A stretch of 64,000 nt of DNA from a virus (IMGVR_UViG_3300017605_000678:1-64000), one strand, 5' to 3'; counted from the stretch's first letter, positions 8,834 through 28,705 are shown. Program-made: numbers and translations. Notes: generated by a model not told the origin, from the letters alone.

Positions 8834-9442
8834 TCACTTCTTTTCGGCGGCGTAGAGGCCGGTGATGAATGCGCCGATTCCCTGGGCCACAATGGCCAGG
8901 ACGGCCACGATCTCCAGGATCGGCTGCTCCGCCAAAGGCTTTGCTGCAAAGATCGCCGCGGCCAGCATGAGGCCGCCCATGAGCGACAAGGATCCCCCCA
9001 TGGTGGTCCGCCAAGCCCGTTGGCGCAGGCCGTCGGAGAAGCCGCGCCCATACGTCGCTTTGTGGGCGCGAATCATGTTGAAGACCGCGTCATTGTCTGA
9101 ACTCGTGAAAGGTTTTTCAACGAATCCATGCGCGCCGGCCGCTACTGCTTTATCGCTCATGCATTGACCTTCCCGGCCCCTGTCGGAGCCGCTAACCGCT
9201 ATGACCACCATGCCTGGGCGCCGCTCCGTCAAATAACGGATCAAGTCGAGACCGCCCATGTCGGGCAAGTCCAGGTCTATGATCGCCGCGTCGAAATTCG
9301 CCTCGCGAACGGCCTCGAGCGCTTTCTTGCCGCTCTTCCGAACATCGACGAAGCAGGCCTTGTCCTTTCCGCCGTTCGTCAATTTTCGTTCCAGCACGTA
9401 TGAGTCGTTCACGTCGCCTTCGACGACCAGGATCGAAGTCAT
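8834..9442 (-). CDS. Phage-encoded response regulator (receiver domain) with C-terminal membrane segments
   Basis: 202 aa. Residues 1-125 form a CheY-like receiver: hydrophobic strand ILVVE with acidic E8/D10, phosphoacceptor D56 in IIDLDLPDMGG, switch S84 in VIAVSGS, and invariant K110 in FVEKPF. All phosphorylation residues are present, so it should accept phosphate from a histidine kinase. A linker is followed by two hydrophobic segments (about 150-168 and 174-197), which would anchor it in the membrane; no DNA-binding domain is present. It abuts connector genes on both sides with no gap, so it is co-transcribed with them. The function is unknown; control of host two-component signalling is possible. 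Confidence 0.85.
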   Translation of the reverse strand: MTSILVVEGDVNDSYVLERKLTNGGKDKACFVDVRKSGKKALEAVREANFDAAIIDLDLPDMGGLDLIRYLTERRPGMVVIAVSGSDRGREGQCMSDKAVAAGAHGFVEKPFTSSDNDAVFNMIRAHKATYGRGFSDGLRQRAWRTTMGGSLSLMGGLMLAAAIFAAKPLAEQPILEIVAVLAIVAQGIGAFITGLYAAEKK

Positions 9443-10012
9443 TCACGCCCTTCTGAGTTTGACGACCCCGCCCTTTGCTGAGGTCGGCTGCGAGTACTTC
9501 CACAGCGCATTCTGAACTGTGCGCGGAACCACTGGCAGCGGATCGCCCCCGCTTGCGAACTCAACCTTGACCGCCCCGGTCAACTCGACGGACTTCAGCC
9601 CGCCCTCGGCGCCGCTGGCGTCGACCGTGCGGTCCCCCTCGAGCAGGCGCATGGCCAGCTCGCACGCCGCGTCGACCACGGCCTTCGGAACCTTGTTCTC
9701 CGGCAAGTATGCTCCCTGCAGCCCGGTGCCGGCGGAGTAAATGCTCCGCTCGTCTGAATCCGGATCAGGACACTGATAGCGCGGCCACTGCAGCCCTTGG
9801 CTTTGGCTTTGCTTGTAACCGTAGAATTGAAACTCCGAATCGATCAGGCGCGACGCCTGGACGAGCGCGGCCGTCTTTTGCGTGCTGTTGGCCGCTGTCC
9901 ACTTCGTGGAATACAGATTGGCATCCGCGAAGGCGTCGCCGTCGGCCACGCTCGCGTAACTGTTCGCGTTCGGGTTGGCCGATCCGTCTTCTTTGATCAG
10001 TGTCAGCGCCAT
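9443..10012 (-). CDS. Head-tail adaptor protein (DnaT-like / gp6-like)
   Basis: 189 aa. It starts MALTLIKEDGSANPNANSYASVADGDAFADAN, the signature of phage proteins labelled 'putative DnaT-like ssDNA-binding' in databases but located in head-tail connector blocks. The helical middle 'KTAALVQASRLID..F.FYGYK' and 'VVDAACELAMRLLEG' fit a gp6-like adaptor. Assigned by motif and location; no DnaT activity is implied. Confidence 0.85.
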   Translation of the reverse strand: MALTLIKEDGSANPNANSYASVADGDAFADANLYSTKWTAANSTQKTAALVQASRLIDSEFQFYGYKQSQSQGLQWPRYQCPDPDSDERSIYSAGTGLQGAYLPENKVPKAVVDAACELAMRLLEGDRTVDASGAEGGLKSVELTGAVKVEFASGGDPLPVVPRTVQNALWKYSQPTSAKGGVVKLRRA

Positions 10013-10015
10013 TTG

Positions 10016-10432
10016 TCAGGGCACGAAGTAAGTTATCTGTTTCGGCGTAATGCAAAAAGTCTCGCCGTAGTCGTTGACGGCCGAGATGACGACCCGGTAG
10101 TTGCCGGGCAGCACGCCGGTCAGATTCAAACCCGTCGTGAGCGTGCCGTCGAGGTCGATCGTCGGATCAAACGGATTCAGCTGGACCAGCTCCAGCGGAA
10201 CGCCGGGCGCGCTCGAGCCCGCGTAAACGTAAATGAACGTCGGCTTTTGAAACGGGTTGCCGTAGTCCTTGATCGTGTAGCCAATCGAGAGCACGCCGCC
10301 CGCAATGAACTTCGCAAACATGCCCTCGGGCGGGTGCGGCGCCAGCTTCAGGTGTTGCGGCGCCTGGGGCGGGCCCTTGCGGTGAACGTCGGCAATGACC
10401 TCCCGGATCCCCTGCTCAATCCATCCTTGCAT
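10016..10432 (-). CDS. Unknown beta-sandwich protein of connector region
   Basis: 138 aa from ATG 10432; the frame stays open upstream and encodes a hydrophobic stretch (FALCLLIFLA), so a longer membrane or signal version starting inside the previous small gene is possible. The C-terminal 80 residues are Ig/fibronectin-like ('PTFIYVYAG', 'LPGNYRVVISAVNDYGE'). No enzymatic motif. It sits 12 bases after a tiny basic gene. Confidence 0.65.
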   Translation of the reverse strand: MQGWIEQGIREVIADVHRKGPPQAPQHLKLAPHPPEGMFAKFIAGGVLSIGYTIKDYGNPFQKPTFIYVYAGSSAPGVPLELVQLNPFDPTIDLDGTLTTGLNLTGVLPGNYRVVISAVNDYGETFCITPKQITYFVP

Positions 10433-10443
10433 GGCCAGAAAGA

Positions 10444-10551
10444 TCAGTAAACAGAGCGCGAACCGGAACGGGCCCGGCGGGCGGTAGCCTTGGGGCGTTT
10501 GGTTCCCACAGTCCGGACCGATTTCTTGGTCTTCTTTTTTTTCTTGTTCAT
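10444..10551 (-). CDS. Tiny lysine/arginine-rich protein
   Basis: 35 aa, starting MNKKKKKTKKSVRT and strongly basic throughout. Its ATG overlaps the TGA of the membrane gene upstream (ATGA at 10548-10551). That overlap and the extreme composition are the support. Nucleic acid binding or membrane-surface binding is inference. Confidence 0.55.
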   Translation of the reverse strand: MNKKKKKTKKSVRTVGTKRPKATARRARSGSRSVY

Positions 10552-10919
10552 GGCGTTTTGGTTTTGTCTCCGGCCCCAGGAGCGGGATCGGCAGAATCGC
10601 GAAGGAGCGGAACATACTTTTCTAGCCTCCACAAGACGGTGTTGTGAGCAGTCCAGGCGACGAAGGCAATACACAGCCCCCACATCGCGAGGATCACTTG
10701 CGGGTTGCGTTGCGTGGGATCGACCTTGCCGACGTCCCCGATCAGAAGGTTCAGTCCAGAGCCGGCGCCCAGGACGGCCAGCGGGATAAAGCGGTTTGGG
10801 AAGGCTGAGATCTTGAGCGCCCAGCCCAAGACGATCAGCACGAAAAAAAGCAGCACGGCCGATGGCCAACACTGCATTTGCTCAACGAAGGCGTGGACGA
10901 AGTCGGTGATGTCTTTCAT
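10548..10919 (-). CDS. Holin-like membrane protein
   Basis: 123 aa with three hydrophobic segments (about 20-38 'VLLFFVLIVLGWAL', 43-60, and 75-92 'VILAMWGLCIAFVAW') and a charged C-terminal tail, the size and layout of several holin families. No endolysin is next to it, so the holin label rests on topology only. Its start overlaps the preceding secreted-protein gene by four bases. Confidence 0.6.
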   Translation of the reverse strand: MKDITDFVHAFVEQMQCWPSAVLLFFVLIVLGWALKISAFPNRFIPLAVLGAGSGLNLLIGDVGKVDPTQRNPQVILAMWGLCIAFVAWTAHNTVLWRLEKYVPLLRDSADPAPGAGDKTKTP

Positions 10920-12970
10920 GGATGAGCAATGATCCCTTGGCTGCGCCCGCTCTTTCCGCGAAAGCGAACCTCAGCCGGCGGAGGAGGATTGGGCGGAGCG
11001 GTCACGCCGGCGGCGTCGTCTCGGCCCGGGAACGGATACGGAGGAACCGAAAGCACGCCCGGCGGGTTCACGAAATAAGTAATCCCTAGCTTTATGTAAT
11101 CCGAGTCGACCAGTCCACCCACGCCCTCGGAACCGCCGCCGGTCCCTCCGATCAGCGGGTCGATCGTGATCCCGTTGACCGTGTTTCGGAAATGATAACT
11201 GTTCGTATGGATCTCGGCTCCGCCGTTCTGGAAATACTGGCCTTCGTCCTGATTGGCGATCCGCAGCTGGGTGCTCCGCGTCGCGTCGCCCCCAATGAGT
11301 CCAGTCACCACGTTGCTATAACAGAGAGCCGTCCCGCCGCGCTGATCGAGCAGCCAGCTCCAGGAGGCCCCGGAAGAAAAGTTCCATTGATTGCTCGCCA
11401 GGATCGTCCCGATCACGCCGCGCGTTCCAGTCGTTGGCCCGTGCTCGTCGGCGATCGGTCCCACGTCCAGCCCGGAGCCAGTGAAGTCCCCGCGGCAATG
11501 GCGGATCATCCAGATTCCGCCCTGCTCTGAACTCACGATCACGGCGATTGGATTGACCGCGACGTTCGCCGAGACAATGCAGTCCTCCAACACCACGAAG
11601 TTGGTCGAACTCGACACAAAAGGGTAGTAGCTCGTGTAATGCTGGCCATCCGTTGCCGCGTCTCCCTGGGCTCGGAAAGCGTAATCCCCGTTGGCAAAAG
11701 AGGATTTATAGATCACGCCGAACGGCCCCTTGCAATAGACCATCCCGTTAATGAATTGGCAGTTGTGGATCCTGAACCAGTCGCCTCCGGGCGCCATGTT
11801 CAAGTGAACATTATGAATGCTCCCGTCCGCGTGATTGTCAGAAGTTCCAACGAAGCGCACGCCGTCGAACTCGATCGCAGGCGCGCTGATCGTGCTTTGG
11901 CTCACCACGCCGTCTCCAGTAGTCGTGATCGTCGTGAAGTTTGTCCCGCGCGGCGCCGAGATGTGAAGGAGCGACTTATTGAACGTCACCCCGCTGCTCC
12001 AGGTCGCGCTGCCGGCCGGCAGCCAGATCGTTTCTCCGCCCGCGGTCGCCGCCGTCACTGCTGCTTGCACGTCTGCGGTTGCCAGCGAGGCGGCGCGCCA
12101 GATCGAGCCAGGGAACATCGGGAAGTTTGCGCCCGTGTCGTCAATCACGACGTTGTCGATCCAGTGGAAAGAGTTTGGCGGCGCCAGCTGGTGCGCGTCA
12201 TAGCGGCCGATTGTCAGATCCGCACAAGTCACGTTCGCGATCTGGAGAGTCACGCGCGACCCAATAATGGTCCAGGTCGAGGGCTCCCAAACTTCCATAC
12301 TGGCCGTGAGCGCGGCCTTGTCCCAAAGGCAAGTTACCCAGTAAAGGTGGTCCCGAGCCAGCACTCCGACCGTTGAAGTGAGACTTGGGCCGTTGCCGCC
12401 CACTTCAAGGTTGACCTCGATTCCTCCTGAGATGTTGTAAAACTGGAAGCCGGCATACTGGCCGCCCCCGGTCACTTCCTCAGCGAACACCAGATCGTAA
12501 GACTGTCCGTCCGGGCTCCAGTTCCCGACCTTCACGTAAAAGCCCCAGCTGACCTTGGCCTTTGCTCCGCCATTGAAAGAGTATTGCATGGTCTCTTCCG
12601 TCTGCCCCGTGTTCGCGCAGCATGTAGAATCGTCCATCTTGAGCGACCGCTTTGATCCGTCGTCGAGCACGAGCGTTCCGTTGGGCAGCCGCGTGCGCCA
12701 CATCCGCGCCGCGATCGGGTTGTCTAGCGTCATGTGACCGCCGTGCGTCGCCCGCTTGAGCGTCCAGGTACCGGCCGCGCTGCTCTGGGTGAATCCGTCC
12801 CAGATCTGGGCGGCCGTCGGCGTGCCGGAAGTCGGATCGACCACGTCGCCGACGTTTCCATTTTCGAAGCGGATCACGGTCTGAATTCGCGCGCTCGAAT
12901 TAAGCGGAGCGGCCGCACGGACGGAGCCGGCGGCCAGGAGGAGAGCCAGGAGGGCAAAAAGGATCTTCAT
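10916..12970 (-). CDS. Secreted tail-spike-like protein: signal peptide, lectin-like domain, beta-helix
   Basis: 684 aa. A textbook Sec signal peptide opens the protein (MKILFALLALLLAAGSVRAAA). Residues of about 25-280 resemble a concanavalin/LamG beta-sandwich ('WTLKRATHGGHM', 'YSFNGGAKAKVSWGFYVKVGNW', 'FHWIDNVVIDDTGA'). About 285-630 resembles a parallel beta-helix with short strands ('IEFDGVRFVGTSDN', 'FRIHNCQFINGMVY', 'FVVLEDCIVSANVA'), as in tail spikes and pectate-lyase folds. The C terminus is Pro/Arg-rich. Virion proteins normally lack signal peptides, so export is notable. It overlaps the next upstream gene by four bases. Confidence 0.8.
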   Translation of the reverse strand: MKILFALLALLLAAGSVRAAAPLNSSARIQTVIRFENGNVGDVVDPTSGTPTAAQIWDGFTQSSAAGTWTLKRATHGGHMTLDNPIAARMWRTRLPNGTLVLDDGSKRSLKMDDSTCCANTGQTEETMQYSFNGGAKAKVSWGFYVKVGNWSPDGQSYDLVFAEEVTGGGQYAGFQFYNISGGIEVNLEVGGNGPSLTSTVGVLARDHLYWVTCLWDKAALTASMEVWEPSTWTIIGSRVTLQIANVTCADLTIGRYDAHQLAPPNSFHWIDNVVIDDTGANFPMFPGSIWRAASLATADVQAAVTAATAGGETIWLPAGSATWSSGVTFNKSLLHISAPRGTNFTTITTTGDGVVSQSTISAPAIEFDGVRFVGTSDNHADGSIHNVHLNMAPGGDWFRIHNCQFINGMVYCKGPFGVIYKSSFANGDYAFRAQGDAATDGQHYTSYYPFVSSSTNFVVLEDCIVSANVAVNPIAVIVSSEQGGIWMIRHCRGDFTGSGLDVGPIADEHGPTTGTRGVIGTILASNQWNFSSGASWSWLLDQRGGTALCYSNVVTGLIGGDATRSTQLRIANQDEGQYFQNGGAEIHTNSYHFRNTVNGITIDPLIGGTGGGSEGVGGLVDSDYIKLGITYFVNPPGVLSVPPYPFPGRDDAAGVTAPPNPPPPAEVRFRGKSGRSQGIIAHP

Positions 12971-13563
12971 TTCCGGAAAAGTAGAAAAGGCGAGAGCGGT
13001 CTTGGCTCCTGGGGCTTCATGTAGCGCATTGGCTCAACGGGGTGCGGCGCCCAGGCGAGTGTTACGGTCCCGGTCGGGCCGGCGCCCACGAGGATCAGGT
13101 CGGCCTTCGTCCAGTCCGTCACGCTGCGCGAGACGAGCGCCACGCCCGGCACTGGCACGGTGATCGCGCCCAGCTGGACGGCCCGAGGCGCCACGGGCTC
13201 GGGCGCCACTTGGAAGAGGACCCAATTGGTCAACGGCGATTCCTGGACCGCGTTCGTGCTCGTCACGGTGATCCAGTGACTCGATGCCAAGTCCCAATTG
13301 GTCAGCGTCACGCCAAGCGATTGGAAGACAAAACCGCCATTCGTGAACGTCTGGATGTTCGTCGAGGCAATGGCCCGCAGGAACACGCCCGAAACGGCGT
13401 TGCTCTCGTAAACCGTGTAGCCCGTCGGCACCATGATCCCGGGCCCGCGCGGGGGCGCGTTCCAATACAGGATCAGCTGGCCAGGGACGGGCGCGGCCGC
13501 CGTCGTGAGGAGGAGGGTTTGCGCGAGTCCAACGACGGCCACGCCGAAGAGTTTCTTGATCAT
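12967..13563 (-). CDS. Secreted fibronectin-III-like protein
   Basis: 198 aa. Signal peptide MIKKLFGVAVVGLAQTLLLT, then an FN3-like domain ('LILYWNAP', 'GYTVYESNAVSGVF', 'WITVTSTNAVQESPLTN') and a second beta region. FN3 domains commonly mediate carbohydrate or protein contacts on virions and secreted proteins. It is coupled to genes on both sides by ATGA overlaps (12967-12970 and 13560-13563). The start was chosen for the signal peptide and the overlap. Confidence 0.75.
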   Translation of the reverse strand: MIKKLFGVAVVGLAQTLLLTTAAAPVPGQLILYWNAPPRGPGIMVPTGYTVYESNAVSGVFLRAIASTNIQTFTNGGFVFQSLGVTLTNWDLASSHWITVTSTNAVQESPLTNWVLFQVAPEPVAPRAVQLGAITVPVPGVALVSRSVTDWTKADLILVGAGPTGTVTLAWAPHPVEPMRYMKPQEPRPLSPFLLFRK

Positions 13564-14339
13564 GATGGGTTGCTCCCGAGGTCGCCCGTGTTGCCCAGGC
13601 GGATCTTGTCGTAAACGATCTTCCCGCTGCCAGAGTTTCCGAACGCGTCGAGGATCTCGATCTTGTCGATCGTTCGCTGCCCCGTGCCCGTCGCCGCCTT
13701 GGCGTGGTTGTTCGAGCCGTCCGCCGGCTTGGTCGCGCTCGTGTTGAACCAAATCTCGGAAATGTCCTCGCCCGCATTGGCGCCTTGCTTGTAGTGGAAC
13801 CAAAGATGGTAGGTCGTGTCCGGCGAGACCGTCGCTACTGTCGAAACGAGCGGGCTCCCGCCGTCTCCGTACACGCGAAAAAGGTTCCCGTTCAGATCCA
13901 CCGTGAAAGCCGGGTTTCCGCTGGAGTCGAGCAGCTCGAGCAAGGTCGTTCCGCCGTCCGCAATGGTCACGAAGCGGATCATCATGTAACCCCAGACTTC
14001 CGGATTGTTGCCGAGGCTGCTCTTCGTGACGATCGAGTTATTCGCAGCCGGCATGCTCAAACTTTGGCTGCCAGCCAGCGGCGCCGGCGCCGCCGTGTCG
14101 TCCCAATTGGCCGCTCCGGCATCCAGCGTCCAGCCGCTGGGCGTGCCCGTGCCCTCGGCGTCCTCGCTCACGAGGTTTGCCGTCCCGTTGCCGCCGCCTC
14201 CGCCCGTGGGCGCGGCGCCTGGGCTCGGCAAGAGACGATTGATAAAGAGGCCGCCCGATCCCGCGGCAGCTCCGCGCACGCGCTGGAGAGGAACGAGCGC
14301 AAAAGCCAAGAGAAGGGCGGCGAAAAGTAGGCGATTCAT
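13560..14339 (-). CDS. Secreted lectin-like (concanavalin fold) protein
   Basis: 259 aa. Signal peptide MNRLLFAALLLAFALVPLQ. The mature protein resembles a LamG/polysaccharide-lyase-like jelly roll: 'SEDAEGTGTPSGWTL', 'VWGYMMIRFVTIADGGTTLLELLDSSG', 'TYHLWFHYKQGANAG', 'DKIRLGNTGD'. Carbohydrate binding at the cell surface is the likely role (inference). It starts four bases after the long fibre gene ends and overlaps the FN3-like gene. Confidence 0.75.
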   Translation of the reverse strand: MNRLLFAALLLAFALVPLQRVRGAAAGSGGLFINRLLPSPGAAPTGGGGGNGTANLVSEDAEGTGTPSGWTLDAGAANWDDTAAPAPLAGSQSLSMPAANNSIVTKSSLGNNPEVWGYMMIRFVTIADGGTTLLELLDSSGNPAFTVDLNGNLFRVYGDGGSPLVSTVATVSPDTTYHLWFHYKQGANAGEDISEIWFNTSATKPADGSNNHAKAATGTGQRTIDKIEILDAFGNSGSGKIVYDKIRLGNTGDLGSNPS

Positions 14340-14343
14340 ACGA

Positions 14344-17300
14344 TCAGAATTTTCGGACTTCGACCTTGAAGGTTCCACTGGCCGGATTCTGTGACGCGGC
14401 CACCGGGATGAAGCGTACCCAGACAAAATCGTTGCTCGCCCAGGCCATATACGACCCAAGGATCGGCATCACGGCCACGGGCGGAACGCCGAGCACGACC
14501 GGATCCCCGGGCAGAGCGCCAGTGACGGCGATCGATAGATCGGCCACAGCTCCGGAGCTTGTGATCGGGAAGTCGAGCGCCGCGGAGGCCGTCAAGTTGG
14601 TTGTGGTCAGCAGCAGGGTTGCCGAGGCCGTCGCCGTGTTTGTCACGATCGCCAGCCCAGGATTCACTTGCAGCGCCAAGTCCGGGATCGCCTCCTCCCA
14701 GGCGTTGGTCCACGTTCCGCGCTTGACGAAATGGTAGCGGCTGACCGCGTTCGTGGGAACGAGCGCTTGCGTGAGCGGATGATTGATCCAGGAGGCCGCC
14801 GCGATCGGCTGCCAGACAACGGCGTTCTGCCCGCTGTTCGTGATTTCAAGGGTTACGTCCACGTTGGGCGAAAAGTTGGTCAGGACGATCGTCGTATTGG
14901 CCGAAATGGCGATTGAGTAAAAGTTGTTCGTGCCGTTCAGCTGAACGACGTTCGCATCGTTCTGCGGCGTGACGACCTTGTTACTGATCGCGCCGTCGGC
15001 GAAGAACCAGCCCTCGTTGAAAATGTTAGTGACCAGCGCATTGGCCTTGATGTTCGTTTGGCTGCCGCTGGCGTCGAACTGGTTCAAGTTGAACGGACCG
15101 CCGCCACCGCCGCCTCCGCCGCTGCTGGCAATTGTCGCCGTGCCCGCGGCCGTGTTAGTCGTGATCGTGATGTTCGGTCCGGCCACGAGCGCCAGACTCG
15201 GAGTCGCCTCTTCCCAGGCATTGGTCCACGTCCCACGCTTCACGAAGTGATAAAAGCTGGTCGCGTTCGTAGGAACGCTTGCCTGCGCGTTCGGATGAGT
15301 CACCCAGGAGGAGGCGCCGATCGGCTGCCACGTCACGACAAATTGCCCTGAATTTGTGATCTCCAGGTAGAGATCTACGTTTGGCGACAGATTGGTCAGG
15401 ACGATCGTCGCGTCGGCTCCCAGCACGATCCGCCAGTTCTGATTCGTCCCATTGACCTGATACACGCTCCCGTTGAGCGTCGGCAGAAAGAGAGAATTGC
15501 TCAGCGCGCCGTCGAGCGTGATGAATCCGGCATTGTGAATGTTCGTGAGCAGCGGGCCGTTGCGGATGTTGGTCAAGCTGCCGGATCCGTCGAAGACGTC
15601 GGTATTGAACGAGCCCCCGCCGCCTCCGCCTCCGCCCGTGGCCCACTTAATGCCGGCCGGTTGCGTTGAGTCCGCTTGCAACGTCGTTCCATTGGCGCCC
15701 ACGGCCACGCGGACCAAATGCGCGCCGTCATAGGCGAAGAGGTCGCCCTTGGAAAGTCCGCTGAGGGCCGCCATGTCCTGCAGGATCATCGCGTCGGCGC
15801 TCATGTTCCAACCGTAAATCGTGCCGGACAGCTGCGCGAAGCGGAACCACGTAACATAGTTAGGCGTCTGATTCGCTTGGCCAGGATCGACTTGGTTCGT
15901 TGCCGTCACCCACTTGATCCCGCTCGGCCACGTCACGCTTCGGCCGCCCGTGCCGTCCTGGACGAGGAGAACATCGATCTGCTTGCCATTGCCGGCGTTG
16001 TTGAAAGTAAAGGTCGTGTTCACCCCAAGCGTTTTCGACCGCATGCTCGAGAGCGCCCAATCGATCGCAGTGCCCGAGATCGCCGCCTCTTGCCGATTGA
16101 TCGGCCCGGAGAAAGTCTGCTCGAGCGAGAAGTTGTTTGCAGCATCCTGATAGGCCGTCGCCGCCGCCACGTTCCCGCGGGCAAGGATCCCGCTCACGGC
16201 GTTTGCGCTCGAAAGATCGATCGCGCCCCATGCCAGGGCGGAGGCCGCTCGGCGCAGCACTTGACCGTCCGCGCTCGAGGACATGTCTCCAGGCACTCCG
16301 GTCGAATTGGCCGCCCGACCGATCACGGAGAGCGCCGCGGAGTTTCGCAGCTTCGTGTCCGTCACGACGCCGGTATCAATCGTAAAGATCGTTCCGGAAC
16401 TTGAAACCGTGATGTCTGTCTTGTCGCCGTCCGTGAGCGTGCCGGCGTTCACCCAGCTCACGTCCGCCCCCGTGCCGCCAGAGCGCAGCAGTTGGCCGAG
16501 CGTGCCCGGCCCCAGGGCGGTCCAGCCGGAGGCGCCGCGGAAGAGGACCGTGCCCTGGGCGCTCCCGGCCCAGTCGAGCAGCTGCGAGAGCGTGACCTCC
16601 TCAGTCACGCCGGCGGCCGCCGTGTTGCGGCCCAAGACGCGCTGGCTAGCCGAAATGTTCTGCAGCTTGGAATAGCTCACGACGCCCGGATCGATCACCC
16701 AGGTCGCCCCGCCGCCGCTGACCGTGATGTCGGTCTTGTCGCCGTCCGTCACTCCGGCGCCCGAGGCCCAGCTCGGGTCCGCGCCGGCGCCGCCCGTGCG
16801 CAGGAAGTTTCCAGCCGTGCCCGGCGCCAATGCCACCCAGCCACCCAGGCCGCGGTAGAGCACGCTTCCGCGCACGCTGGAAAGCCATTCCAGCAGCTGG
16901 CCAGGGTTGAGCGCCTCTGGCGGCCCGCTGCCGGCCGTCTGGCGCCCGAGGAACGTCTGGTTGGCAATGTTCGCGATCTTGCCCAGGCTCACGGCGCCGG
17001 CGTCAATCGTCCACGTCGCGCCGCCTCCTGAAACCGTTATGTCGGTCTTGTCGCCGTCCGTCACGGGCGAGACGGTCAAGGGCACAATGTTTGCCGAGGC
17101 GTCGAATCCAAGCACCTTGCCGGCGGCCCATGACGTCGCCGGCCAGTTGAAGAGCGTGGTCGGCGCAATCACAAACTGCTCGAAAATCTGCGCGTTCGTG
17201 AGGTTCACCCCGTTCTTGAGCGAGATCAGGCCCATAGTCGGTCCGAATCCAAGCGGAGAATAGAATTGGTCGGAGTTCAGCATTGTCCACTGGATCCCGA

Positions 17301-17907
17301 CCTCTGTGCCCTGCAAGAACCAACCGTTGTGGTTGGCCGGCGGGTCCAGAGTCTCCCAGACGACGCCGTCGGAGAACAGGACGGAGCCCGCGGGCGCCTT
17401 GGCCCCAGTGAGCGAGTAAATCATGTTTAGGATATCGGAGGCAGCGATTGCCTCAGGGGCGCCAGTGCCGACCGAATAGCGGCCGAGGATCGTATTGCGC
17501 GCTTGGCTTTGCATTTTGGCCAGCGTCACGGCCGAGTTATTGATCGTCCAGGTCGAGCCGCCTCCGCTGACCGTGATGTCGGTCTTGTTTCCGTCCGAGA
17601 CGCCGCCGCCGGTGCCCACCCCGCCGTGCGTTTCCCATCCGGTCGTCGTGGCCGTGCCGTTTGTCTTCACGAAGAGCGTTCCAGCGCCCACGCTATTGGT
17701 CCGGATCCAGATGTCGCCAACGGAGCCGCTGATCGCGCCCTCGGGCGCCACGTTGCCGGCTTGAATCGTCCCGGGCTTGCCCAGCTTGACCGAAAGGTTG
17801 GCGTCGGAGTTTGTCGTGTTCCGGTTCTTGAGGATGGGCGGCCCGAACTGGGCCGCGGCCGGAAAGCAGATCGAAAGGAGGAGCGCGAGGCGCAAGATCG
17901 TCTTCAT
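14344..17907 (-). CDS. Very long secreted repeat-rich tail fibre
   Basis: 1187 aa. Signal peptide MKTILRLALLLSICFPAAA. The middle contains at least four modules of the phage-fibre repeat 'DG(D/N)KTDITVSGGG..WTID..(A/V)V' spaced by 60-100 residues, each followed by 'LGR....G.PE'. A capsid-proximal-type 'AWNMSADAMILQDMAALSGLSKGD' segment follows. The C-terminal third holds two copies of a domain of about 150 aa with 'NLSPNVDLYLEITNSGQ' and 'FVKRGTWTNAWEEA', each after a poly-Gly linker. The ATG at 17907 was chosen because the upstream frame is an Arg-rich artefact; GAACGAAATAAC precedes it. Confidence 0.88.
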   Translation of the reverse strand: MKTILRLALLLSICFPAAAQFGPPILKNRNTTNSDANLSVKLGKPGTIQAGNVAPEGAISGSVGDIWIRTNSVGAGTLFVKTNGTATTTGWETHGGVGTGGGVSDGNKTDITVSGGGSTWTINNSAVTLAKMQSQARNTILGRYSVGTGAPEAIAASDILNMIYSLTGAKAPAGSVLFSDGVVWETLDPPANHNGWFLQGTEVGIQWTMLNSDQFYSPLGFGPTMGLISLKNGVNLTNAQIFEQFVIAPTTLFNWPATSWAAGKVLGFDASANIVPLTVSPVTDGDKTDITVSGGGATWTIDAGAVSLGKIANIANQTFLGRQTAGSGPPEALNPGQLLEWLSSVRGSVLYRGLGGWVALAPGTAGNFLRTGGAGADPSWASGAGVTDGDKTDITVSGGGATWVIDPGVVSYSKLQNISASQRVLGRNTAAAGVTEEVTLSQLLDWAGSAQGTVLFRGASGWTALGPGTLGQLLRSGGTGADVSWVNAGTLTDGDKTDITVSSSGTIFTIDTGVVTDTKLRNSAALSVIGRAANSTGVPGDMSSSADGQVLRRAASALAWGAIDLSSANAVSGILARGNVAAATAYQDAANNFSLEQTFSGPINRQEAAISGTAIDWALSSMRSKTLGVNTTFTFNNAGNGKQIDVLLVQDGTGGRSVTWPSGIKWVTATNQVDPGQANQTPNYVTWFRFAQLSGTIYGWNMSADAMILQDMAALSGLSKGDLFAYDGAHLVRVAVGANGTTLQADSTQPAGIKWATGGGGGGGGSFNTDVFDGSGSLTNIRNGPLLTNIHNAGFITLDGALSNSLFLPTLNGSVYQVNGTNQNWRIVLGADATIVLTNLSPNVDLYLEITNSGQFVVTWQPIGASSWVTHPNAQASVPTNATSFYHFVKRGTWTNAWEEATPSLALVAGPNITITTNTAAGTATIASSGGGGGGGGPFNLNQFDASGSQTNIKANALVTNIFNEGWFFADGAISNKVVTPQNDANVVQLNGTNNFYSIAISANTTIVLTNFSPNVDVTLEITNSGQNAVVWQPIAAASWINHPLTQALVPTNAVSRYHFVKRGTWTNAWEEAIPDLALQVNPGLAIVTNTATASATLLLTTTNLTASAALDFPITSSGAVADLSIAVTGALPGDPVVLGVPPVAVMPILGSYMAWASNDFVWVRFIPVAASQNPASGTFKVEVRKF

Positions 17908-17968: not shown

Positions 17969-18172
17969 TTAAGCCTGCAAGACGAGGTTCCACCCCGTGT
18001 TCCCGGAACCGCCCGAAAACTTGAAGTAAAGGAACCCGGTCGCCGTGTCGCCGTACCACGATCCTTGCGCAGCAGCGACCACGCCCTCGGGCGCGCCCGA
18101 GCCAGTGAGATTGCTCCCGCTGCCCGTGATCGTCGTCCCGCCGGCGCCGGTCGTGCCATGCCGGATCATCAT
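17969..18172 (-). CDS. Small structural / fibre accessory protein
   Basis: 67 aa from ATG 18172 (MMIRHGTTGAGG). The C terminus, 'GSGAPEGVVAAAQGSWYGDTATGFLYFKFSGGSGNTGW', is a widespread fibre-associated motif (GS.PEGVV.A..GS.Y...) that often forms a beta-prism-like tip in phage structural proteins. It sits directly upstream of the long fibre. The later of the possible starts avoids overlap with the preceding gene. Confidence 0.7.
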   Translation of the reverse strand: MMIRHGTTGAGGTTITGSGSNLTGSGAPEGVVAAAQGSWYGDTATGFLYFKFSGGSGNTGWNLVLQA

Positions 18173-18702: not shown

Positions 18703-19776
18703 CTAGTTGTTATGCGTGATGCCGACAAACCGGATGTTCTTGTAAACGTAAACCGGAGGCGTGGCCGCGCCGTCGTAGCCCGTCACCCAGATCGGGGTCC
18801 AACGGGCCGCCGTGGCCAGCTGCGCGTCGGTCGCGCCGCCGTCGGCAGTCGCGCCGCCCGTCGTGTCGTTCCACTGGAAGCCGCGCGGATGCTTGATCCA
18901 GCGGCGCCGATTGATAAGCACGTCGTCGTGAGCCAGCGAAACGCGGCTCAACTCGACGCCCTTCGTACCGAACCCGCCGGACAGCGGCTCATTCAAGCGC
19001 TGATTTCCGAACCCGAACACGCCCGGCCCGTAGAGGACCGAAGTGTAAACCACGCCGTCGGTCGAGCCGGCACGCGTCGGCATCTGGTCGGTGATGATCA
19101 CGCGCCGGCCCTGGAAGACCGCGATCGTCGGCTTGCCTTCAGAGTCGGGCAAGTAGTCGATCAAATCCTGCTTCTTAAGCGCCGCCTCCGTCGCCGAGTG
19201 CATGGAGATCGCCACGAGGTCGCGGTTGGCGTCGCCCAGCTTCTGGACGGCGTCCACGAAGGTCGAGCCGTTCAGCTTCGTCGCCGACGTCTGCGCGGCA
19301 ATCGATTCCGAATGAATGGCCAGCAAGTTGGGGTCGCCAGTCACGGCGTCGAGCGCGCCAATGATCCCTTTGACGGAAGCGATCACGATCGATTGGTCGA
19401 TCTCCGTCCAGTAAGTGGCGACGAAGTCGGCGATCGCCATCATCGGATCGTCGCCGGCCAGCAGCGCGGCCAGGAGGGTCACGCTCCAGGCGTTGCCGTC
19501 ATTGTGAATCCGCGCCACGTCGGTCGACGTGTTGATCGAATTCACAGAGAACGAGCCGGAGTCCGAGATCAACTGCCGGGCCGCGAGCGAGACCGTGCCC
19601 TGCTTCCACGCGGGCATTGAAACGATCTTGCCGCCGTCGGAGATGAGCGCGTCGTACTGCGGGCCGACCTCGATAATGTCGGATTGCCCGAAAGAAGTAT
19701 TGATGACCGATCGCTCGATCACGTAGTCCTCAAAAATGCTCGGGACGAGGACGTCGGAAACCAGTGTTTTCGCCAT
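18703..19776 (-). CDS. Major capsid protein
   Basis: 357 aa. The opening MAKTLVSDVLVPSIFEDYVIERS plus 'VSMPAWKQGT', 'DDPMMAIADFVATYW' and 'VFGFGNQRLNEPL.GGFGTKGVEL' matches the Gp13-like / 'coat protein' major capsid family. It follows the scaffold gene by about 60 bases. It forms the HK97-fold icosahedral shell in related phages. Confidence 0.92.
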   Translation of the reverse strand: MAKTLVSDVLVPSIFEDYVIERSVINTSFGQSDIIEVGPQYDALISDGGKIVSMPAWKQGTVSLAARQLISDSGSFSVNSINTSTDVARIHNDGNAWSVTLLAALLAGDDPMMAIADFVATYWTEIDQSIVIASVKGIIGALDAVTGDPNLLAIHSESIAAQTSATKLNGSTFVDAVQKLGDANRDLVAISMHSATEAALKKQDLIDYLPDSEGKPTIAVFQGRRVIITDQMPTRAGSTDGVVYTSVLYGPGVFGFGNQRLNEPLSGGFGTKGVELSRVSLAHDDVLINRRRWIKHPRGFQWNDTTGGATADGGATDAQLATAARWTPIWVTGYDGAATPPVYVYKNIRFVGITHNN

Positions 19777-21920: not shown

Positions 21921-22634
21921 TCAGAGTTTGATCGTGAGGCGCGGGCCCGCGAAGAAACGGCCGAACGCGGCGCCGGCCTTCCCGTTGCCGGACACGTCGA
22001 AGGCGTACGCAACGAAGATATCCCCAGAAACGTATTTGCTCTTCAGGAGGTTCACGGAGGCGCCCAGGGGCACGCGGCAGAACACGGAAAGATCGGTGCC
22101 GTGATTGGCGCTCGAGGCGCCTTCTATGTCGTAACCCAGGCCGATTCCGGCGTTGAGGCGCACGCGCGGTCCGACCGGCGCTTCCAGGCGCAGGCCGCCG
22201 CCGGCACGATCGATCACAGCGTGGGCCGTGTTGTCGCTCTCGCCAAATCCCCAGAGCGACAGATACCCGGTCAAGTGCGCGACCACGTTCGCGCCGGCGC
22301 CCGTGACGGCCCGGCCGTCGAGCCCGCTCCAGCTTACGGTCCCGTATGGCTCCAGCGAGACGTCGGCCAGGAACGGGTTTGCCTTCTCGTCGCGCGTCGG
22401 CGCCTTGGCCTTTGGCGCGGCCGTCAACTCCTCCGGCTTGCCCTGGGGCGGAGCGCCCGCGGGCGCCTGGGCAATGTCAAATTCGGAGCCGCCGCGCAGT
22501 GTCACATCGCCTTTGTCGCCGTCGCTCAAGACGTCGTGAAACGTGGGAAGCAGGTTCGGAGTTTGGGTTTGCGCGGGCGCGAGCCGAACGAAGGAAAGCG
22601 CCGCGATGGTAGCCAGCAGGAGGATTTTGCGCAT
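21921..22634 (-). CDS. Secreted outer-membrane-barrel-like protein
   Basis: 237 aa. Signal peptide MRKILLLATIAALSFVRLAPAQ, then one 'LSDGDKGDVTLRGG' motif like the repeats of the long fibre, a Pro/Lys/Ala linker, and from about 95 a series of alternating amphipathic strands ('YGTVSWSGLDG', 'VVAHLTGYLSLWGFGE', 'RVRLNAGIGLGYDIEG', 'DIFVAYAFDVSG') ending in 'GPRLTIKL', as in small outer-membrane beta-barrels. The barrel call is by pattern only. It is the first gene after a terminator in the structural block. Confidence 0.7.
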   Translation of the reverse strand: MRKILLLATIAALSFVRLAPAQTQTPNLLPTFHDVLSDGDKGDVTLRGGSEFDIAQAPAGAPPQGKPEELTAAPKAKAPTRDEKANPFLADVSLEPYGTVSWSGLDGRAVTGAGANVVAHLTGYLSLWGFGESDNTAHAVIDRAGGGLRLEAPVGPRVRLNAGIGLGYDIEGASSANHGTDLSVFCRVPLGASVNLLKSKYVSGDIFVAYAFDVSGNGKAGAAFGRFFAGPRLTIKL

Positions 22635-28525: not shown

Positions 28526-28705
28526 TCACCGTTTCGGGCTCAACTTGTCCAGCCCCATGCCGGCGCCCTCGATCTTGTCGGCGCTCGATTCAATGGTCCG
28601 GACCGTGCCGTCCGTGCTCGTGATCGTTTCTTTGACATAGGGGCGCTCGATCCGCGCGACGCAACCGGCCAGGAGGAGGAACGGGAGAAGCAAAAAGATT
28701 CGCAT
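28526..28705 (-). CDS. Small lipoprotein
   Basis: 59 aa with a lipoprotein signal: MRIFLLLPFLLLAGC, in which LLAGC is a good lipobox. The mature part is about 45 residues and polar. Outer-spanin or superinfection-exclusion roles are possible for phage lipoproteins; none is shown here. Confidence 0.75.
   Translation of the reverse strand: MRIFLLLPFLLLAGCVARIERPYVKETITSTDGTVRTIESSADKIEGAGMGLDKLSPKR

Follow-up and report, generated by a model that had tools for sequence, protein, structure and literature searches.

Predicted Sec-exported fibre-type, lectin-like and beta-helix proteins encoded as a four-gene set in a phage genome with a putative outer-membrane barrel

The virus IMGVR_UViG_3300017605_000678 is represented in IMG/VR by a record of 75,536 bp (genome G000), the first 64,000 nucleotides of which constitute the stretch analysed here as a whole (the window). 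Since the ends of the record share a direct repeat of 141 bp, the genome is complete. Four adjacent genes on the minus strand of the window (10916-17907) encode a repeat fibre, a lectin-like protein, an FN3-like protein and a LamG-like/beta-helix protein, and the N-terminus of each product is predicted to be a Sec signal peptide. Export of these proteins by Sec is well supported at the sequence level, because in two other phages such signals are present on all homologues of the proteins and also on neighbouring proteins that are not homologous. On balance, we lean towards the view that the proteins would leave the cytoplasm and act on the envelope of the infected cell, and not as virion fibres fitted together in the cytoplasm.

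Signal peptides and identities of the four proteins

The first gene of the set (14344..17907) encodes an exported repeat fibre of 1187 amino acids (aa), whose signal MKTILRLALLLSICFPAAA is followed by QFG and which contains phage-type shaft repeats (DGDKTDITVSGGGATW...). It is followed by genes for a LamG/ConA-like protein of 259 aa (13560..14339; N-terminus MNRLLFAALLLAFALVPLQRVRGAAAG, signal MNRLLFAALLLAFALVPLQRVRG(A)), an FN3-like protein of 198 aa (12967..13563; N-terminus MIKKLFGVAVVGLAQTLLLTTAAAPVPG, signal MIKKLFGVAVVGLAQTLLLTTAAA) and a LamG-like plus beta-helix protein of 684 aa (10916..12970; signal MKILFALLALLLAAGSVRA followed by AAP). A preliminary description of this DNA had already presented four adjacent genes, each with a Sec signal peptide, and all were recovered on the minus strand at the same coordinates, with the first open reading frame (ORF) starting at 17907. 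Its further statement that the genes are translationally coupled, or nearly so, agrees with the start sites: two of the four (12970 and 13563) overlap the stop codon of the gene before them in the four bases ATGA, and a third (14339) is located 4 bases past the preceding stop. Consequently, the choice of start is not a weak point. The four genes would form one translationally coupled set that is probably expressed late.

Signals were called by a rule requiring a positively charged n-region, an h-region and a cleavage site with small residues at -3/-1. For its calibration, proteins from two regions of the E. coli K-12 genome, 49 kb each, were assigned to classes from their gene names; the rule was positive for 18/18 exported proteins or lipoproteins, 1/45 cytosolic proteins and 7/23 integral membrane proteins. 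According to this rule-based call, all four N-termini of the set fit the layout of Sec substrates of signal peptidase I (SPase I), with a charged n-region, a hydrophobic h-region and small -3/-1 residues. Beyond residue 35, mean hydropathy over 19-residue windows peaks at 1.2-1.7 in the four proteins, and hence they exhibit no clear second membrane segment. The rule is positive for 3% (18/583) of phage proteins with a length of 100 aa or more, a base rate at which four positives in a row would have a chance of about 1e-6 per position. Within G000 itself 11 of 85 genes were rule-positive, several of them evident false positives, and a permutation gave P = 0.012 for a run of at least four. Recurrence in other phages constitutes stronger evidence than these run statistics. 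Automatic start calls missed several signals there (G001 22095; G387 6817, 9144 and 10067; L027), which were recovered via upstream in-frame starts.

The earlier labels of fibre, FN3-like, lectin-like and beta-helix are partly right; the 684-aa protein combines a LamG-like N-terminal half with a beta-helix C-terminal half. As the Pfam search returned no match for three of the four proteins, the LamG, FN3 and beta-helix labels were read from homologues and patterns; PDB sequence searches gave no matches. The 1187-aa fibre shows shaft repeats and fibre domains of the phage tail fibre kind and short matches to annotated phage proteins, and its profile matches were phrog_9017 (tail fiber, E=6.6e-4) and DUF5907 (E=2.4e-5, below the curated cut-off). 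No N-terminal tail-attachment domain was recognised in it, the signal being followed by an APEG...TGW motif. For the 259-aa protein there was no Pfam, PHROG or PDB sequence match, and a LamG/ConA-like fold is suggested by its pattern; the 198-aa protein had no fn3 profile match. The C-terminal half of the 684-aa protein, whose AlphaFold model has a mean pLDDT of 32, has relatives among secreted, signal-bearing beta-helix proteins: two genomes that belong to the same class as G003 encode them next to polysaccharide deacetylase and glycosyltransferase-type genes.

Recurrence of the set and of a barrel gene in other phages

A single viral relative of the 684-aa protein was found, encoded in contig 3300017605_000811 (L028/G001) and 53% identical to it over the full length. 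The gene order in this contig is like that of the window (shaft fibre, LamG-like, LamG-like, FN3, LamG/beta-helix), the first LamG-like gene having no window counterpart. The exported fibres are 42% identical over 458 residues, and the 259-aa protein is 50% identical over 204 aa to a homologue that also bears a signal. No direct sequence similarity was found between the 198-aa protein and the G001 protein in the matching slot, which has an fn3 Pfam match above cut-off. In total, seven consecutive G001 genes carry signals, including those for a 130-aa protein and a YadA-head protein ahead of the set, two of the seven signals scoring slightly under the strict threshold of the rule. The G001 set is placed after tape-measure and tail-tip type genes and is followed by a holin-like gene and then by a signal-bearing homologue of the window gene 21921-22634. 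The N-termini themselves are identical at 7/19 and 7/17 positions, against 54% and 50% for the rest of the proteins, a drop so small that this test is weak alone.

The window gene 21921..22634 (minus strand), encoded 4 kb upstream of the set, specifies a predicted 8-stranded outer-membrane beta-barrel protein (signal MRKILLLATIAALSFVRLAPA followed by QTQ) and is common to all set phages compared. As its sequence matched no Pfam or PHROG family, the barrel was assigned by fold only: the AlphaFold (AF2) model, of moderate confidence, has 8 strands with pLDDT above 60 in most barrel blocks, and its fold matches were OmpA, Ail, OprF, OmpX and phage-encoded outer-membrane barrels. Homologues are encoded in G001, in L182/L184 (G388/G387) and in L197. 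G387 presents a podovirus-like order of capsid, 531-aa signal protein, fibre, LamG-like, beta-helix, FN3, holin and barrel genes. The signal of its fibre (MKTKLVLLAVLLVASGAIMLA followed by Q) starts at a GTGA overlap, its beta-helix and FN3 proteins are signal-bearing, and its LamG-like protein has a hydrophobic N-terminus only; the FN3 match there is weak (E=0.022). BLAST of the G387 set proteins against those of the window revealed no similarity except for the barrel, so the likeness between both phages is one of protein type and export. The capsid genes and the gene order around the set differ among G000, G001 and G387, and in all three a holin-like gene lies directly or shortly after the set. 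In L184 (4620-5438) a single open frame, which contains an internal start, covers both the holin-like protein and the signal-bearing barrel; G001 encodes the two by distinct genes that do not share a frame. In L197 the signal-bearing barrel adjoins a terminase-type gene, and a signal-bearing protein with a decoration-protein-like look (16349-16969) is encoded immediately after the major capsid gene.

Searches beyond these carriers were largely negative. Of 384 genomes compared with a fibre profile, one gave a match, to a short fibre ORF without a signal; a barrel profile matched none of the same number, and no prophage copy was detected when genomes were scanned with the beta-helix family. Within the flanks examined, the set was not found around the capsid-protein relatives L003-L017 or in L033-L050, which are prophages in metagenome-assembled genomes (MAGs) of Verrucomicrobia. 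L033 was considered as a carrier on account of a signal-bearing giant fibre after the capsid gene and was rejected, given that the prophage part ends before it and the 2966-aa protein that follows was taken as a host gene. Likewise, G215, which encodes a G387-like tail protein, proved to be a remnant in which the set is absent.

It had been stated beforehand that virion fibres normally lack such signals. In a sample of 113 complete ORFs picked solely by the shaft motif DGDKGDITV, with N-termini ignored, four were signal-bearing, and the statement is therefore mostly right, although signal-bearing fibres do exist in other phages, rare but not unique to this one. Tail fibres of this type share their shaft repeats with the window fibre and differ from it in that 109 of the 113 carry no signal. 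Target proteins of phage diversity-generating retroelements (DGRs) have also been reported without signals (PMC6199706). Three of the four signal-bearing sampled fibres (L068, L106 and L156) belong to one family of long fibres, in which the signal is followed by Q(I)...TA.IPYT and of which L018 is a further member; its genes lie directly after tail genes in L018 and L106, and no barrel was found in the contigs. The AT-rich contig L027, of 63 kb, also encodes a fibre, of 2339 aa, whose gene ends at 14809 and for which an upstream in-frame start gives the signal MKKIILFLLISMTAMTGVKAQS. A general signal-peptide rule for Verrucomicrobia phages was rejected, as SignalP is reported to predict no signal peptide in the isolated phage P8625 (PMC4642752).

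Genomic setting

Nearly all window genes are carried by the minus strand. Below the major capsid gene the order is two small ORFs, the four-gene set, a holin-like gene, an ORF at 10016-10432 and the gene for the head-tail adaptor Ad1. The SPP1 gp13-like major capsid protein (18703..19776, minus strand), the upstream neighbour of the set, has no signal, and its relatives (about 50% identity) are found in MAGs of Verrucomicrobia subdivision 3 and similar; the host of G000 is probably verrucomicrobial. Between the capsid gene and the set, a signal-free 67-aa protein (17969..18172, minus strand) shares the APEG...TGW fibre motif when compared by eye. Directly below the set, the gene for a holin-like membrane protein (10548..10919, minus strand; phrog_1129 holin, E=5.4e-4; Phage_holin_5_2, E=0.007, below cut-off) starts at 10919 and overlaps the end of the 684-aa gene by ATGA. 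The next recognised structural gene past the set encodes Ad1 (9443..10012, minus strand; phrog_477, E=4.6e-39), without a signal. No integrase or resolvase match was found in the G000 genome, which makes lysogenic conversion unlikely.

Separate tail genes of the same genome are located outside the window. They encode a tail-tip protein (67889-70825; phrog_1101, E=1e-62) with a hydrophobic N-terminus, a tail fibre (66989-67885) without a signal and a LamG-like virion-type protein (64925-65629; phrog_10356), also without a signal. An apparent radical-SAM type protein (65656-66486), recognised by eye, is encoded between tail-fibre genes, and a minor tail protein (72856-74730) contains many IASGEAFGTLQ-type repeats.

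Among the head-tail connector genes, the ORF at 8834-9442 (minus strand) encodes a protein with a receiver domain of response regulators (Pfam E=1e-15) and, behind it, a hydrophobic C-terminus. Elsewhere in the window, the ORF at 28526-28705 (minus strand) encodes a small lipoprotein (lipobox LLAG followed by C) that is possibly an outer spanin. Seven of the subdivision 3 MAGs (L035, L036, L044, L045, L047, L049 and L050) contain repeated short blocks of portal-type, scaffold-type, SPP1-like capsid and Ad1 genes, often with a small lipoprotein gene and then integrase or host-type genes, and with no tail genes. We interpret these blocks as remnants or capsid-only satellite-like elements.

Proposed role, alternatives and relation to known systems

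The preliminary description had offered export during infection and acquisition by the virion outside the cytoplasm as two explanations of the signals. Export itself is well supported by their recurrence, and we infer that action on the cell is favoured over acquisition because the barrel travels along, the virion types differ and G000 has a separate signal-free tail set. The proteins would reach the periplasm and then the surface, which they could attain by way of the barrel or when lysis sets in. There, the lectin-like and beta-helix proteins could bind or cut host polysaccharide, and the long fibre might provide a spacer or a scaffold. The phage would probably benefit during lytic growth, with receptors masked against re-adsorption and competitors, and/or envelope glycans cleared for release. 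More tentatively, the genes may constitute a multi-gene system that is mobile among tailed phages with unlike virions and serves to cover the infected diderm cell in phage-encoded fibres and lectins, held by or exported through a dedicated barrel, such that virion fibre genes have turned into genes of secreted surface proteins.

Several observations weigh against action on the cell envelope. The set would be dispensable, given that the capsid-protein relatives L003-L013 are without it, and fibre export would be independent of the barrel, since no barrel was found in six further contigs with a signal-bearing fibre, several of which are fragments. No catalytic site, catalytic motif or enzyme family match was identified in the set proteins. 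The N-terminus of the tail-tip protein was also flagged by the signal rule; in our judgement it is the usual start of such proteins and lacks the charged-hydrophobic-AxA layout of the four. In addition, the exported and non-exported fibres of G000 are 41% identical over 61 residues, and because fibre and LamG-like domains also occur signal-free in this genome, the exported proteins may be modified virion parts.

That shared domain, together with the phage-type shaft repeats, is also consistent with a virion function of the proteins: after Sec export they would fold in the periplasm or beyond it and be joined to virions during or after lysis as an adhesion device assembled outside the cell. The location of the genes fits as well: right behind the tail-tip genes in G001, the usual place of a tail fibre; near the capsid gene in G000 and G387, the usual place of decoration genes; and directly behind tail genes for the signal-bearing fibres of L106 and L018. 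However, no common attachment domain was found beside the signals, the set occurs with its barrel in phages of different virion types, and G000 possesses separate signal-free tail-fibre genes; we consider such an assembly unlikely, though the most probable of the alternatives. Less likely still, the exported beta-helix and lectin-like proteins could be polysaccharide-degrading enzymes that clear the envelope and work with the holin and barrel in lysis and progeny dispersal. Consistent with this are the holin-like gene that follows the set in all three phages and the polysaccharide-type genes near beta-helix relatives in host-class genomes, but the set proteins match no catalytic motif or enzyme family, and the long fibre would be left unexplained. 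It is improbable that the N-termini are uncleaved anchors or assembly handles, as in membrane-associated virion assembly: the N-terminus of the G387 LamG-like protein, where the cleavage site is poor, may be such an anchor, whereas most others have Ala-x-Ala-like sites in a normal n/h/c layout, and the unrelated proteins share this layout only, not sequence. Chance or a start-site artefact is very improbable. GC-rich, Ala/Leu-rich proteins do raise false positives, as several rule-positive genes of G000 without true signals illustrate, but the ATGA-fixed starts, the signal-bearing homologues and above all the recurrence in three phages already contradict it.

Among known systems, T5 Llp and phi80/N15 Cor are phage lipoproteins that are exported to the envelope during infection and block adsorption. 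They resemble the set in this export and in the benefit proposed here, and differ in being single small (lipo)proteins, whereas the set consists of large multi-domain proteins of fibre and glycan-binding types with mostly Sec type I signals. Lambda Lom, whose gene is flanked by those of the tail spike and tail fibre and which inserts into the membrane of the host (PMC12309495), is, like other phage outer-membrane barrels, a small signal-bearing barrel; the barrel described here has no sequence family match and travels with exported fibre, lectin-like, FN3 and beta-helix genes. PblA and PblB of Streptococcus phage SM1 are tail/fibre-type proteins that end on bacterial surfaces (PMC3675006), and a signal peptide is predicted for a pneumococcal PblB (PMC4508584). 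In contrast to the set, the SM1 proteins are also virion parts, bind as free proteins to the wall of non-induced cells, belong to phages of Gram-positive hosts and are accompanied by no barrel or multi-gene exported run. The secreted beta-helix proteins of Verrucomicrobia-class genomes share the beta-helix half and the signal peptide of the 684-aa protein, which differs in its extra LamG-like half and its place among phage structural genes.

Thus, exported phage proteins, phage outer-membrane barrels and fibre-type proteins on cell surfaces are already known from Lom, Llp, Cor and PblA/PblB; a literature search, mostly outside subscription journals, retrieved no report of a barrel gene accompanied by a run of genes for exported fibre, lectin-like and beta-helix proteins. 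Fibres are regarded as virion parts assembled in the cytoplasm, and annotation pipelines label such genes as tail fibres. Should sets of fibre-type proteins be exported in these phages, their host range would be predicted wrongly from fibre genes. The proposed role, if true, would also mean that phages carry out a multi-protein remodelling of the envelope, which has so far been known mainly from single small proteins.

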